This document shows positions 26,317 through 32,554 of a stretch of 64,000 bases of DNA, piece by piece; the stretch's first letter is position 1, and the number at the start of each line of letters is the position of its first letter. The DNA lies in contig JAUMUO010000002.1 in the NCBI GenBank assembly GCA_030530605.1, positions 98,608 to 162,607 of the forward strand, given 5' to 3'. The notes beneath the pieces were generated by a model. It ran no database searches. It saw only the letters and a program-made list of their open reading frames with translations, and had not been told where the DNA came from. This DNA is from Candidatus Saccharimonadota bacterium (GTDB taxonomy: Bacteria > Patescibacteriota > Saccharimonadia > Saccharimonadales > Saccharimonadaceae). The position numbers and the translations under genes were made by a program.

Positions 26317-26564
26317 ATAGTCCTTGAGGTACCTTAGGGGCTGTCAAAAGCCCCATATGGGGACTAGTTCGCTAAACGAATTATTCCCTGCCCAAAAGAT
26401 ATTAGAGTTGTCTTTGGAGTGTGGAAAATATGACCTTCCCGGAAAGGAGATACCGCGCCGGTGGCGACGCGCTCCCTTCCGGTCTATATCGGGCCAATTG
26501 CCGAGCAGGCAGGCGGACCGCACCAAAATAAAAAATTAACAAGAAGTGGAGTAAAAAACAAAAA
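26317..26564 (+). other. Hairpin-rich interval before the FtsL-like gene
   Basis: Contains a strong hairpin GGGGCT/AGCCCC (26337-26354), a TTCG/CGAA hairpin, and a larger fold in which GGAAAGGAG pairs with CTCCCTTCC around CGCG/CGCG (about 26450-26500), plus CGGTC/GACCG. This may be an mRNA leader or attenuator between the 21-codon peptide and ftsL. No known RNA family is recognised. Confidence 0.45.
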
Positions 26565-26921
26565 ATGCGATCAGGAGAATATACATCAAGACGCGGAACT
26601 AATAGCTACATTAGTTCTAGTTGGACCAGAAACCGTAATACTATTCGTCACGAAAGAAAAGGTCTCGGCCCAGTCAGTCTTATTGGTATGTTCTTAATGC
26701 TTATTACCGTTATGGGTATGATTTATCTTACTCAAGGTACCAAAGCCACTTCTTATGATTACACCCTAAATGAACTCGATAGCGAAATCGCTGAACTCAC
26801 CGCTGAGAAAGAAGACCTCGCCGTTGAAAAAGCTCGTCTCACCTCTATTGCCACTTCCAATGATTCTCAAGTCGCCGCCGCCATGCCTTCCGCTTCCCCA
26901 TCCGGCTATGTTAATGAGTAA
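26565..26921 (+). CDS. FtsL/DivIC-like division protein
   Basis: A 118-aa bitopic protein: basic cytoplasmic start (residues 1-35), one membrane helix (about 37-57), then a heptad-like helix (YTLNELDSEIAELTAEKEDL) typical of FtsL/DivIC coiled coils, and a short Ser/Ala/Pro tail. Its place downstream of rsmH is the classical position of ftsL. It would act in the FtsQLB complex that activates FtsW and the PBP. Sequence identity in this family is always low, so the call rests on architecture and position. Confidence 0.65.
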   Translation: MRSGEYTSRRGTNSYISSSWTRNRNTIRHERKGLGPVSLIGMFLMLITVMGMIYLTQGTKATSYDYTLNELDSEIAELTAEKEDLAVEKARLTSIATSNDSQVAAAMPSASPSGYVNE

Positions 26922-27006
26922 ACTTTTCCAGCACTACCTTTTTGACCACTATAAAAATGAACAAAAAATCACCCGAAAAACAGCCCCAAAAAATCATTTT
27001 TTACAA

Positions 27007-27012
27007 TATAAT
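27007..27012 (+). promoter_or_regulatory. Candidate -10 box of the DGR template RNA
   Basis: TATAAT within an AT-rich stretch upstream of the structured segment. No good -35 box is seen 17 bases upstream, so the promoter is tentative; the RNA would start near 27019. Confidence 0.4.
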
Positions 27013-27273
27013 ATATTATAGAAGGAGTATCCGGTCCCCTGAAGGCATATCGCCCTCGAGGATAGCCTTTTGCCCGACCGGCTCAATAGGAAGATGGGAG
27101 ATACCCTTGAAAAATTAAAATTCAAGACACATACAGATTAGTGCGAGTTTCCTACGGGAAGCTCTGCGACCCCAAGTTGTCTCCAAATATACCAGTTCTG
27201 TTCGTTGTTACTGTGTGTGGGTACGGCGAAAGTTCAGGTGAGTCGGAATTCAACTGGCAAAAATCGTACTTAA

Positions 27274-27497
27274 GCAGGTTTCTCGTACTCCGGGAACTGG
27301 AATGGTACGAATGATAGCGCCAGCAACGTTGGTTCCAACGGGAACTATTGGTCCGCCTCTGTTTACAATACCAACAACGGCTACAACCTGAACGTCAATT
27401 CGTCCTATGTGAACCCCCAGAACAACAACAACAAGAACAACGGGAACGCCGTACGTTGCGTACGTTCTTAGTAGTCTTTCCCCCAGCATCTTCCTTC
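27274..27497 (+). repeat. DGR template repeat (TR)
   Basis: 224 bases aligning without gaps to the reverse complement of 29734-29957. All 24 differences are at TR adenines between 27295 and 27446: 13 or so become T, the others G or C. The TR carries 16 AAC codons in the target frame and all 16 are changed in the variable copy. Both flanks (27274-27294 and 27447-27497) are identical in the two copies. Confidence 0.97.
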
Positions 27498-27518
27498 AAA
27501 AAGCACTCCTTTGAAATC

Positions 27519-27563
27519 GAGCCTCTCGCCCACGCTTGCGTGACCGAAGGACCAATGAGGCTC
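27519..27563 (+). repeat. Hairpin 3' of the template repeat
   Basis: Outer arms GAGCCTC/GAGGCTC (7 bp) enclose CACGC-tt-GCGTG. It begins 21 bases after the template repeat and ends 12 bases before the RT stop codon, so it may be part of the template RNA or a terminator between convergent transcripts. Confidence 0.65.
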
Positions 27564-27575
27564 CAAAACCAAATC

Positions 27576-28721
27576 TTAAAATTTGTACTCCCACCCCACT
27601 GATTCAAAGACTTTACTGTTCAATTTTTTTGAACGAAGGTGCTTCCCCATCCCAAGATACGACGTTATTGATTCATCGTCTCTATAGTTATTCATATATT
27701 CCTCAACTGCTCGATAAAAATTTGCCACGAACCTTTTCCCAGGCAACAATCGGTCTCTATAAACTTTTACTCCTAAGAACGGCGCTCCTTTATAGACCGG
27801 CTGTATATAAATCTTGTCTGGGTGCATCCTATGCCCCATATCTTCTAAAAATTCTGGTACCACTTGTTCAAACATCAATTTCGCGTATTCAAACTCTTCC
27901 TCCGGCACGATAATATAAAAATCGTCCACATACCGCCCATAATATTTAAATCCCAGGTCAAACTTCATAAATCTATCAAACGGATCAAGGTTGATATTCG
28001 ACAATAGCTGCGAGGTTAAATTTCCAATTACAATTCCCTGCCCCACTGGCTGACAAAACAAACTTTTATTATTTGGTAATGGCTTCCACTCTTTTTTCCC
28101 ACCTGCCATCCTCACTCTATAAACTGGATCGTCAAAAATCACTTCCCGCCACAGAAACCGACAAATCTCATACTCCCAACCCCTTTCTGGAAACTGTCTA
28201 TCAAGCCCCCACAAAATTCTCTCAAATAAAAGTTCTCGATTCAGACTCATAAAATACCCCGAAATATCACCTTTCAGTATATATGCTTCTCTAGTTCCTG
28301 CCTGTGTCGCTTTTTCCATAAAATGTTGCATCCTTTGTGCTCCCAAAAGCGTACCTTTACCATCTCGGCAAGAATAAGAATCATAAATAAAATGCCTATC
28401 CCACCAGTATCCATTCATCGCGTACAAAAAATGGTGCACAATTCTATCCCTAAATGGCGCCGCAAAAATTTCTCGTATCACCGGGTTATGCGTAATGAAC
28501 GCTTTCCCTCGGCTCGGATGATAAATTCTGTGAATAATATCATAATCGAGCTGCTTCAAATTCTCATAAAAATACATTTCAAATTTATGTTCATCTTCCG
28601 TTCGCATCTTGGCTCGCTTGGCCATATTATAAGATTGCCAAAGCGCATCCAGCAGGTCATCGTCACACTCTGGGATTCTCATAAATTGATTTTTCGAAGT
28701 TCTACTTTTATTTGTTCTCAT
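27576..28721 (-). CDS. DGR reverse transcriptase
   Basis: Error-prone reverse transcriptase of 381 aa that copies the template RNA with adenine-specific errors. Motif 1 region PSRGKAFITHNPVIREI, motif 3 LKGDISGYFMSL, motif 4 GQGIVIGNLTSQLLSN (IGxxxSQ, the DGR hallmark instead of QGxxxSP), motif 5 GRYVDDFYII with the catalytic YVDD, and the motif 6-7 region KGAPFLGVKV. There is no RNase H, maturase or endonuclease domain. Its ATG overlaps the accessory gene stop (ATGA), so the two are co-translated. The reading frame is intact. Confidence 0.95.
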   Translation of the reverse strand: MRTNKSRTSKNQFMRIPECDDDLLDALWQSYNMAKRAKMRTEDEHKFEMYFYENLKQLDYDIIHRIYHPSRGKAFITHNPVIREIFAAPFRDRIVHHFLYAMNGYWWDRHFIYDSYSCRDGKGTLLGAQRMQHFMEKATQAGTREAYILKGDISGYFMSLNRELLFERILWGLDRQFPERGWEYEICRFLWREVIFDDPVYRVRMAGGKKEWKPLPNNKSLFCQPVGQGIVIGNLTSQLLSNINLDPFDRFMKFDLGFKYYGRYVDDFYIIVPEEEFEYAKLMFEQVVPEFLEDMGHRMHPDKIYIQPVYKGAPFLGVKVYRDRLLPGKRFVANFYRAVEEYMNNYRDDESITSYLGMGKHLRSKKLNSKVFESVGWEYKF

Positions 28722-29680
28722 TTCTTGTTTTTACCTTTGTGCTCGTTTTCAATTTTCTGTACTGCTAATTTTTTCTTTTCAAAAATAATTTGGTTGCGCA
28801 ATTTAGACAAAAGTCCTGCTATTTCTAATTGTTTATCATCGTTCATAATTCTAAGTGGTGAAAGCATTAAAAAGTATCCGTCTGCCCTATCCACATTTTC
28901 CATTGCAAAATCTAAAAACGCTTCCGCATCACCATCACTCTTTGCTATCACGGTATATTCTACTCCGATATCTCTAATCAATCCTGCCAGTTCTCTGCCA
29001 ATCATCAATTTTGGCAAATCGCTCATATCCTTAAACGCCCAAAAAATTGTCCTAAAAGTTTCTTTTATATCCTCAAAAAGATTTGGCATCATTTCTTTTG
29101 GTTTTATCATTTCGTTCGCTCGCTCCACTAATGCCTGAGTTTGTTTTCTTAGCAAATTATATTCGTCGGTCTTAATTCTTTTCCCCAGACTAAAAGTGTA
29201 GATTTCATCTTTCGCATCAACTAATTCAACTCCTACCCGTTCTAGTTTTTCTGCCAAAGTTTTGATATTTGGCACACTTACAAATCCTTCCCTGCTCTGA
29301 AATTGATAATCTTTATCAGCCTGCAACTTGGCTTTAGAACCTATTTTATTTTTATACAAAGCGTCAAAATATACCGCTGAACGCCCAAACGCCTTATACC
29401 ACGAGTTTTTTGATGGCGACTTTATAAATATCATTTCGGTCTGATTTTTCTTTTCCCGCTGAAGCACTATTCGCTTCTTTTCGTAGTAGCGCAAAGACTC
29501 TTTTCTTCCCTCAGATGAACTTTGCGATGCTGGCGCAGTCACTTTCTCGAGTGTTGGCTCCAGCGGCACCAAAGGCGCCGCTGTCGCAAGTTCCTCCGGC
29601 TTTTGGGCCGGAGGAACTGTCTTCTTTGCCGCTCCAAAGAGCGGCAAAGAATCTATTTCTGCCTGTATTTTTTTACCCAT
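28718..29680 (-). CDS. DGR accessory protein, MutS-I-like plus Avd-like domains
   Basis: A 320-aa protein. After a disordered Pro/Ala-rich start and basic region (residues 1-80), residues ~83-165 resemble the MutS mismatch-recognition domain (SWYKAFGRSAVYFDALY, then VPNIKTLAEKLERVGVELV). Residues ~175-310 form predicted helices with the layout of Avd (SDLPKLMIGRELAGLI, then YFLMLSPLRIM). MutS-like (Msl) and Avd proteins are both described as DGR accessories; here they appear fused. It would bind the RT and template RNA. ATG has a GGAGGAATTG site. Domain calls are by eye and need a profile search. Confidence 0.65.
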   Translation of the reverse strand: MGKKIQAEIDSLPLFGAAKKTVPPAQKPEELATAAPLVPLEPTLEKVTAPASQSSSEGRKESLRYYEKKRIVLQREKKNQTEMIFIKSPSKNSWYKAFGRSAVYFDALYKNKIGSKAKLQADKDYQFQSREGFVSVPNIKTLAEKLERVGVELVDAKDEIYTFSLGKRIKTDEYNLLRKQTQALVERANEMIKPKEMMPNLFEDIKETFRTIFWAFKDMSDLPKLMIGRELAGLIRDIGVEYTVIAKSDGDAEAFLDFAMENVDRADGYFLMLSPLRIMNDDKQLEIAGLLSKLRNQIIFEKKKLAVQKIENEHKGKNKK

Positions 29681-29698
29681 CTCAATTCCTCCATCTTA

Positions 29699-29732
29699 CT
29701 TGATGCTTATCATTATAACTCTTTTCATCAAG
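29699..29732. promoter_or_regulatory. Inverted repeat and -10 box at the 3' edge of the VR
   Basis: CTTGATG (29699-29705) and CATCAAG (29726-29732) are perfect 7-base inverted copies; a smaller CTCTT/AAGAG hairpin overlaps (29719-29734). On minus, a TATAAT box (29712-29717) for the accessory-RT operon lies in the loop. Position directly 3' of the VR matches the hairpin that promotes retrohoming in the Bordetella phage DGR. Confidence 0.65.
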
Positions 29733-29733
29733 A

Positions 29734-29957
29734 GAAGGAAGATGCTGGGGGAAAGACTACTAAGAACGTACGCAACGTACGGCGAACCCGCGGTACTTGT
29801 CGTAGTAGTACTGGGGGTACACATAGGACGAATTGACGCTCAGGTAGTAGCCGCTGTCGGTATTGAAAACAGAGGCGGACCAATAGAACCCGTAGGAACC
29901 AACGAAGCTGGCGCTACCATCCGTACCATCCCAGTACCCGGAGTACGAGAAACCTGC
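29734..29957 (-). repeat. DGR variable repeat (VR)
   Basis: Covers codons 509-573 of the target gene plus 26 bases after its stop. It carries 24 base changes against the template in 20 codons, between residues 516 and 566; four codons have two changes. Resulting residues at AAC-derived positions are mostly Tyr, Phe, Asp, Ser and one Arg. The last 51 bases, with the stop and beyond, are identical to the template and should serve as the initiation-of-homology segment. Confidence 0.97.
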
Positions 29958-31561: not shown

Positions 31562-32554
31562 TTAACCTCTTGGCGGTTCGCCTTCGGCATCCTCTAGCAA
31601 CTTCTTAGATTTAATCTCGTATCTCTTCCCGTTCACCGGCGAGACATAATAATCTTCATTAATCAAATTCACTAGCATCGACAAATCTTTATCATCCATA
31701 ATAATAATAGAGCCATCGTCATCCGTCATTAATTCTAAATGCATCTCATCCGCATAATCAATCACCTGTTCCTGCGTCATCTCCTCGGCGATATCCATCG
31801 CCTGAACTTTTTTCAAAATCGGCTTCTTATCCGCGAGTAACGTATCTAAAGTCAAACCCTCCGCAAAAGATAACTTATATTTCTCCGAAAGCTCCTTAGC
31901 CTTTTCTTCCGCGAGCACCTGCGACTTATAATCATACTGGAACAGCGCCTCAAACTTCGTCTGGTTAAAGATAATCACATCCTCGCCAATAATCGCCACT
32001 TGGTTGTCGCTTGGCATTTTCAAAGCCACTTCCGCTGAAAACGGTTCAAACGATTCCCCGTTTAGTTCCCAGCTAGACCCAGCCTTGAGCGCCGAAGATG
32101 CCGAGATTCCCTTCGCGATATAAAAACTTTTTGTTTCCCCGCTCTCCGCATCCGGATAAGAAAACTTCGCAAGTATCCCCTTAATTTTCTTAAACCCATA
32201 TTCATTGTCCGAGAAGAAATCCATATCGCGATATTCTTGCTCAATCAAGTGAAGCAAAGTTTCCGCTCGCCCTACTTTAGAAAGTTTTGTCCGATAAATT
32301 ACCTTTTCTTCCCCGTCGCTTTTCTCATATTCACGGCACTCCAAACCTTTGTCCGCTTCTTCAATAATATATTTAACTGCCTCGTTCAAGAAAAGTTCCT
32401 TAACTGAGCTCGTCAAAGCATCTGAATAACGCACCTTATACGGGGTATAATTTTTATTGAACAGGAATAGTTCTACTGAAACATTATTCTTAATCTCATC
32501 TACTTCGTTCGCCCAGTGAAATACGTCAAAACTTTCTTCCATCTTTTCCTCCAA
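31562..32554 (-). CDS. DUF4868 (KwaB-like) protein
   Basis: A 330-aa cytoplasmic protein. The overall layout fits DUF4868: a mixed N-terminal domain, FKKIKGILAKF, a central beta segment with KSFYIAKGISASSAL, and VIIFNQTKFEALFQYDYKSQ near residues 200-220. KwaB of the Kiwa antiphage system belongs to this family and binds DNA. No KwaA-type membrane partner is next to it, so a Kiwa role is unproven. It lies directly upstream of and in line with the DGR target, 80 bases away. A TTTCCTCC-complement site (GGAGGAAAAG) precedes ATG. Confidence 0.55.
   Translation of the reverse strand: MEEKMEESFDVFHWANEVDEIKNNVSVELFLFNKNYTPYKVRYSDALTSSVKELFLNEAVKYIIEEADKGLECREYEKSDGEEKVIYRTKLSKVGRAETLLHLIEQEYRDMDFFSDNEYGFKKIKGILAKFSYPDAESGETKSFYIAKGISASSALKAGSSWELNGESFEPFSAEVALKMPSDNQVAIIGEDVIIFNQTKFEALFQYDYKSQVLAEEKAKELSEKYKLSFAEGLTLDTLLADKKPILKKVQAMDIAEEMTQEQVIDYADEMHLELMTDDDGSIIIMDDKDLSMLVNLINEDYYVSPVNGKRYEIKSKKLLEDAEGEPPRG

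Follow-up and report, generated by a model that had tools for sequence, protein, structure and literature searches.

A complete diversity-generating retroelement (DGR), of a known kind, is present in the stretch of Candidatus Saccharimonadota DNA analysed here (64,000 nucleotides (nt) of contig JAUMUO010000002.1 in assembly GCA_030530605.1, called the window below). Its template repeat (TR) is likely transcribed as a small RNA in its own right, from the strand opposite to the reverse transcriptase (RT) gene, and behind a structured leader that likely either docks the complex of RT and accessory protein or stops the copying. DGRs act in nature as machines for the targeted hypermutation of proteins; the best studied of them keeps its template, accessory gene and RT gene together on a single strand. 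What the sequence itself offers for the present case is a difference between the TR and the variable repeat (VR) confined to adenines, a set of open frames, a reversed TR and a covarying leader linked to that TR. The parts of the system are as follows, in window coordinates.

27007 to 27012, plus strand: TATAAT, predicted to be the −10 box of a promoter for the TR and lying 90 nt before the RNA element, from a positional count over 37 loci
27020 to 27273, plus strand: whole predicted 5' leader of the TR RNA, common to the three DGRs of the host genome, the consensus fold of which adds a 5' hairpin
27097 to 27184, plus strand: core of the leader RNA element, three helices, from covariation
27274 to 27497, plus strand: TR, a 224-nt gapless match to the VR in which all 24 mismatches are adenines of the TR
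27472 to 27497, plus strand: tail common to TR and VR beyond the stop codon, identical in both, in the place of the initiation of mutagenic homing (IMH) site in BPP-1
27519 to 27563, plus strand: possible 3' hairpin of the TR RNA, GAGCCTC...GAGGCTC, weak
27576 to 28721, minus strand: DGR reverse transcriptase, 381 amino acids (aa), with IGNLTSQ and YVDD and with PHROG and 8ub7_A matches
28718 to 29680, minus strand: accessory protein, 320 aa, with a predicted N-terminal alpha/beta domain and C-terminal Avd-like bundle
29734 to 29957, minus strand: VR, the 3' end of the target gene plus 26 nt past its stop codon
29760 to 31481, minus strand: target gene, 573 aa, with a Flg_new repeat and the VR-bearing Fib_succ_major domain

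The case for a DGR is carried by the two repeats. Adenines make up 60 of the 224 TR positions, and the probability that 24 randomly placed differing sites would all fall on them is 3e-16; the substitutions are 15 A to T, 8 A to G and a single A to C. The target frame closes within the VR, and the two repeats then stay the same for 26 nt more. A complete DGR had been read from this locus in the original prediction, and on recount its repeat coordinates, the 224-nt length, the gapless alignment and the 24 adenine-only differences proved exact, as did the change of all 16 in-frame AAC codons and the 20 differing target codons between residues 516 and 566; both RT motifs that it named are in the translation, and RT, TR, VR, target and accessory gene have all been found. 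That interpretation stands; what it did not include is that the TR is reversed, that a structured RNA leads it, that there is an accessory gene, and that the genome has two further DGRs.

On the minus strand the order of transcription is target, accessory gene and RT, the RT gene overlapping the accessory gene by 4 nt, and the TR sits alone on the plus strand beyond the RT, 78 nt separating its 3' end from the stop codon of the RT gene. Against RVT_1 the RT scores 28.4 bits, just under the cut-off of 29.6 bits; it matches PHROG 1423 with E 8e-67, and its top match among solved structures is 8ub7_A (E 1.8e-21), an entry titled as a DGR ribonucleoprotein reverse transcriptase. The target matches PF09603 (E 6e-11), PF09479 (E 2e-9) and also TIGR02145, and is predicted to be a secreted protein, its N-terminus resembling a signal peptide when judged by eye. 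The VR occupies the C-terminal end of the Fib_succ_major domain, which we take to be a C-type-lectin-like fold. The host genome, probably that of a gut Saccharibacterium, is of 677,640 bases in 10 contigs and is 95.7% complete.

The reversed TR is a feature of a family of such loci. Collection of relatives gave 138 loci and, from these, 109 distinct RTs, of which 106 belong to the family and three (L092 to L094) are distant and have the TR co-oriented with the RT; loci from related genomes are not independent of one another, and the counts should be read with that in mind. A finder requiring at least 80% of mismatches to fall at A recovered a TR/VR pair in 85 of the 106 family loci, and 82 of these 85 share one layout, in which the TR follows the RT on the other strand. 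Of the 82, 62 have the VR upstream of the RT and on its strand, and 20 have it downstream and on the strand of the TR. The remaining three are L049 and L087, where the TR is upstream on the opposite strand, and L081, where it is downstream on the same strand. Among the 21 family loci lacking a pair, an AAC-rich TR-like stretch was seen in 10, and in L173 one became apparent when the sequence behind the RNA element was translated; eight of these eleven are opposite the RT and three (L103, L136 and L173) are on its strand. Of the 96 family loci whose TR could be located, 92 have it opposite the RT; the other 10 of the 106 gave no TR. Among the named loci found with the RT alignment (the best 80 of 168), 79 have the title Candidatus Saccharibacteria or, in a single case, Candidatus Nanosyncoccus alces, and many come from ruminant gut. 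The remaining one, L144, is on a contig titled Candidatus Nomurabacteria and has a family RT at 51% identity, reflecting either transfer or an error of binning or naming. The RT match comes in two pieces at L088, L089 and L090; the open reading frames (ORFs) at L088 and L089 are of 561 and 672 aa, and the finder gave no TR/VR pair at either.

How the reversal arose can be partly read from other genera of the same order, where 18 loci were gathered and 11 gave a TR/VR pair. In the five nearest sister loci (L205 to L209, RT 50-55% identical) VR, RT and TR all share a strand and nothing between target and RT matches the accessory profile; the TR is also co-oriented in L210, L212 and L218. In the RT tree the 106 family RTs together with L210 form one clade (support 0.93), within which L081, L103 and L136 each stand singly amid reversed loci; for L173, no TR has been located in any other member of its group. 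Reversal thus looks to be derived relative to the nearest sisters and then kept in the family, the side on which the target lies changing freely. It appears to have arisen elsewhere too, since three outgroup loci with RTs near 30% identical (L213, L214 and L220) have a reversed TR, and a single origin of TR reversal, considered as a candidate, is unsupported for that reason. In these three the TR and the VR are both opposite the RT, which is the DiGReF group-4 layout.

Directly 5' of the TR, in the TR sense, the three cassettes of the host genome share a leader, and its core of 88 window positions forms three helices: across the three copies all 60 of 60 cells are paired and 8 of 21 pairs have changed on both sides. 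A covariance model built from these three copies alone found eight further loci (E between 5e-9 and 0.11); in each the element is on the strand of the TR and stands before a TR or TR-like stretch. After two rounds of extension the alignment held 24 sequences with 92.4% of 485 cells paired (98.8% in helix 1), and none of 500 shuffles reached either its paired fraction or its covariation score; the count of double-change pairs was matched by 10 of the 500. Because the alignment was fitted to the model, the position of the element is a cleaner test than its pairing. The final model, at E 0.1 or better, has matches in 37 of 110 sources, 14 of them outside the training set. In all 37 the element is followed by a TR or TR-like stretch, and in 34 it is opposite the RT. 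At the 30 element loci with a TR/VR pair the TR starts between a one-base overlap and 224 nt downstream, and at the seven lacking a pair a TR-like stretch follows, including three with the element on the RT strand. The element stays before the TR also where the TR has moved or turned (L049, L103, L136 and L173). When 174 whole genomes of the genus were searched with stricter filters, 16 of them gave a total of 19 matches, every one at an RT locus, and among 294 genomes of the order the element was seen in three, all of the genus, with an RT match in 41. It was detected in none of the 18 sister and outgroup loci, L205 to L209 and the reversed L213, L214 and L220 included. No Rfam family matches the leader at the gathering score, nor at E 1 for positions 26900-27600. 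Folding energy was set aside as evidence for the leader, the margin over the reverse complement being small (mean z of −1.76 against −1.21 in the 40 leaders tested of 78), and covariation was used in its place because the energy signal was too weak.

A promoter for a separate TR transcript is predicted at the TATAAT at 27007-27012. Within 150 nt upstream of the element, in the TR sense, TATAAT is found in 28 of 37 loci as against 9 of 37 on the other strand, and 26 of the 28 have a copy at −98 to −65. On the 3' side of the TR, which often extends for only 0-80 nt before the RT stop codon, no conserved element was found; strong hairpins follow the TR in 25% of 81 loci, against 7% for shuffled sequence and 6% for the coding sequence of the RT, and a conserved 3' structure was given up as a candidate on this modest excess. 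The exact TR 3' pattern had no match in viral contigs. After the VR, a GRNA-loop hairpin with a stem of 6 or more within 60 nt was found in 0 of 82 loci, and so a cruciform of the phage-DGR type is not found in its GRNA form; perfect stems of 8 or more with any loop occur there in 23% of the 82, and the window VR is followed by a 7-bp stem with a 20-nt loop.

In all, the host genome carries three such RTs and DGRs. The other two cassettes, L037 on contig 2 and L038 on contig 5, also have the TR reversed, with 19 of 19 and 18 of 18 TR/VR mismatches at A. The L037 TR matches, in addition, within an ORF of 1192 aa on contig 8 (L039), where 21 of 21 mismatches are at A. This ORF (L039:6061-9639, plus strand) carries its hypermutated VR in mid-ORF, with Fib_succ_major at residues 845-966, and the trans copy is without the tail which the L037 TR and its cis VR have in common after the VR. 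Between the two targets of the L037 TR 827 nt are shared. The flanks differ at 7 of 635 sites, all in the first 57, so that the 578 bases adjoining the VR are identical, and the two 192-nt VRs differ at 27 sites, 27 of 27 being TR adenines (Fisher P of 2e-12 for VR against flank and 5e-16 for A against non-A). Since the VRs differ at TR adenines only and the flanks are near-identical, each VR has most likely been diversified on its own since the two copies separated, pointing to recent activity of the L037 cassette. It had been proposed that, in reads or genomes of related strains, VR changes should fall only at TR-adenine positions while the TR stays constant; changes confined to TR adenines amid near-constant surroundings are such a pattern, and for this paralogous DGR of the same genome it is what is found.

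From these observations we infer the following pathway for the window. A leader-TR RNA of about 0.5 kb would be made from the promoter near 27007. Starting at the 3' end of the TR, the RT and its Avd-like partner would reverse-transcribe it, making errors at adenines, and the resulting cDNA would then replace the VR of the predicted secreted target by homing, the 3' side being fixed by the shared end, and the leader would dock the RT-accessory complex or else stop the copying. With a promoter of its own the TR need not be co-transcribed with the RT or the target, and independent TR transcription fits a target lying on either side of the RT and, for the paralogous cassette, on another contig. 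A 5' rather than 3' element is favoured for docking or stopping, with moderate confidence, because the 3' side is short and without a conserved element.

Several points weigh against this scheme. BPP-1 has its docking structure on the 3' side of the TR (PMC12875486, in the text available), and a 3' structure may be present here as well. Four family loci (L081, L103, L136 and L173) have the TR on the RT strand, and so a reversed strand is not strictly required; no element was detected in the reversed L213, L214 and L220, and so either feature may occur without the other. Matches to the final model are limited to those 37 of 110 sources, and the genus-wide search gave the element in just 16 of 174 genomes, missing one of the three own copies, and in the remaining loci the element has either diverged past detection or is absent. 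The window leader is not unusually stable by folding energy (z −1.0). At the predicted TR promoter a two-hexamer promoter scan flags nothing, and the promoter claim rests for that reason on the positional TATAAT count. Finally, the A-mismatch spectrum of the family (1763 of 1823 mismatches over the 85 pairs) is biased upwards by the finder having demanded at least 80% A mismatches.

The chief alternative is that of an ordinary BPP-1-like DGR, docking and priming 3' of its TR, with the leader only regulating or protecting the TR transcript and the reversal an inherited accident of inversion. It is rather doubtful as a whole and still deserves real weight: in BPP-1 the RT and Avd do dock on a 3' spacer (PMC12875486, the text available), strong 3' hairpins are in excess over shuffles, the RT tree is compatible with one inversion in the family, and reversal is met in the three distant outgroup loci showing no element. 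It does not readily account for a 3' side that is often 0-80 nt long with no conserved element found, for a strongly covarying 5' element with a TR or TR-like stretch behind it at every locus where it is detected, or for the constancy of TR orientation across a family in which the target changes sides (62 against 20). A dead system, the VR of which was diversified in the past, is improbable; the comparison covers one genome per species for the window's own VR, which leaves room for a relic, but the RT and accessory frames are open, the RT motifs are intact, and the two VRs of the paralogous cassette differ at 27 sites, all TR adenines, beside 578 identical bases. Most improbable of all is that the leader is part of something unrelated, for instance a riboswitch or the end of the adjacent gene, and that its position next to the TR is coincidental. 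The gene upstream in the window (ORF 26565-26921) is indeed on the same strand, but the element keeps its place before the TR in 37 of 37 loci, also where the TR has moved or turned, all 19 matches from the 174 genus genomes are at RT loci, and no Rfam family was matched. A stand-alone template transcript with a leader acting on the RT is the reading preferred here. A stronger version would have the DGR of this clade rebuilt around a stand-alone template gene of about 0.5 kb with its own promoter, a new 5' module replacing the 3' spacer for docking and stopping a RT with a MutS-like/Avd fusion, and one template rewriting several surface-protein genes in trans; this is offered tentatively, and may well claim too much.

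The accessory protein was approached through structure models because sequence searches gave no convincing match: it has no Pfam match (threshold E 5) and no NCBIfam match, and nothing convincing was returned from PHROGs or PDB sequence searches. Its AlphaFold2 model (predicted local distance difference test score, pLDDT, of 88.8) has an alpha/beta domain at about residues 50-165 and an Avd-like four-helix bundle at about 195-312. In model comparison the C-terminal bundle matches S23/Avd folds, and the family profile matches bAvd-type proteins of other DGR loci, so that a four-helix bundle adjoining a DGR RT, the mark of the Avd family (PF22296 / S23 fold), is found here. The protein is thus predicted to be an Avd-like bundle with an extra N-terminal domain. 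That domain resembles MutS domain I, but the likeness is weak and a MutS identity is suggestive only. A 'MutS-like' accessory is reported to occur in bacteria of the candidate phyla radiation (CPR); the term was absent from the papers searched for it, a set outside which Paul et al. 2017 and Wu et al. 2018 lie. MutS domain I is present in 14 of 59 phylum genomes searched and was not found at E 1e-10 in the window's own genome, an absence on which no conclusion is built.

Set beside the BPP-1 DGR (Mtd/bRT/Avd), as it is described in the accessible text of PMC3240598 and PMC12875486, the window is alike in the A-specific TR/VR difference, the DGR-type RT, the Avd-fold accessory and a VR at the C-terminal end of the target. 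It differs in that the TR is opposite the RT strand rather than on the same strand, with a promoter of its own predicted, and in the extra N-terminal domain of the accessory protein. Further, a covarying element lies 5' of the TR in the window family, whereas BPP-1 recruits RT-Avd by a 3' spacer (PMC12875486, same text), and no GRNA-loop hairpin, a motif taken from what PMC3240598 makes available, follows soon after the VR. The sister-lineage DGRs of the same order (L205 to L209), similar in having an RT 50-55% identical over the best match, are unlike it in a TR co-oriented downstream of the RT, no accessory-profile match and no leader detected.

Separation of the RT from the other parts has been described before. 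In DiGReF group 4, 'inverted' DGRs have the RT opposite TR, VR and target together, three cases that were called rare, and transcriptional separation of TR and RT was already inferred for them (Schillinger et al. 2012, PMC3521204, in the text available); the window resembles these in having TR and RT on different strands, but here it is only the TR that lies on the other strand, in the window as in 62 of 85 loci, and almost the entire family shows the reversal. Yan et al. 2019 distinguished 122 cassette patterns, among them G5 with the RT inverted relative to the canonical order, a likeness to the window, and G1 over 20 times as frequent; G5 is rare there, and a leader RNA is not among the features described in the accessible part (PMC6642488). 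DGR clade 2 of Roux et al. 2021 is restricted to Patescibacteria, cellular and mostly aquatic (PMC8144416, as far as its available text goes), and it has in common with the present DGRs that they are cellular and of the same phylum. Overall it is clear that the DGR itself is known, and that RT and TR on different strands have already been described as rare. For a leader RNA of DGRs no published description was found in a search that did not cover Paul et al. 2017 and Wu et al. 2018, two key surveys; no DGR paper was among the matches listed for DGR with covariance models or Rfam, and none was found for DGR with Nanosyncoccus.

If true, a stand-alone template RNA with a recognisable structured module would make a modular template for engineering, and would give a handle on how bacteria with 0.7-Mb genomes vary their predicted surface proteins. 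The leader makes the docking site of the RT directly testable, and its model would also find TRs without recourse to a VR, the element having preceded TR-like stretches in the seven loci lacking a finder pair.

Two observations concern the surroundings of the cassette. The intergenic region at 26330-26540 (plus strand), before an ftsL-like gene, folds better than shuffles (z −2.9, 0 of 200) and has no Rfam match at the gathering score. Adjoining the DGR target, a KwaB-like protein is encoded at 31562-32554 on the minus strand (PF16162, E 2.9e-9).

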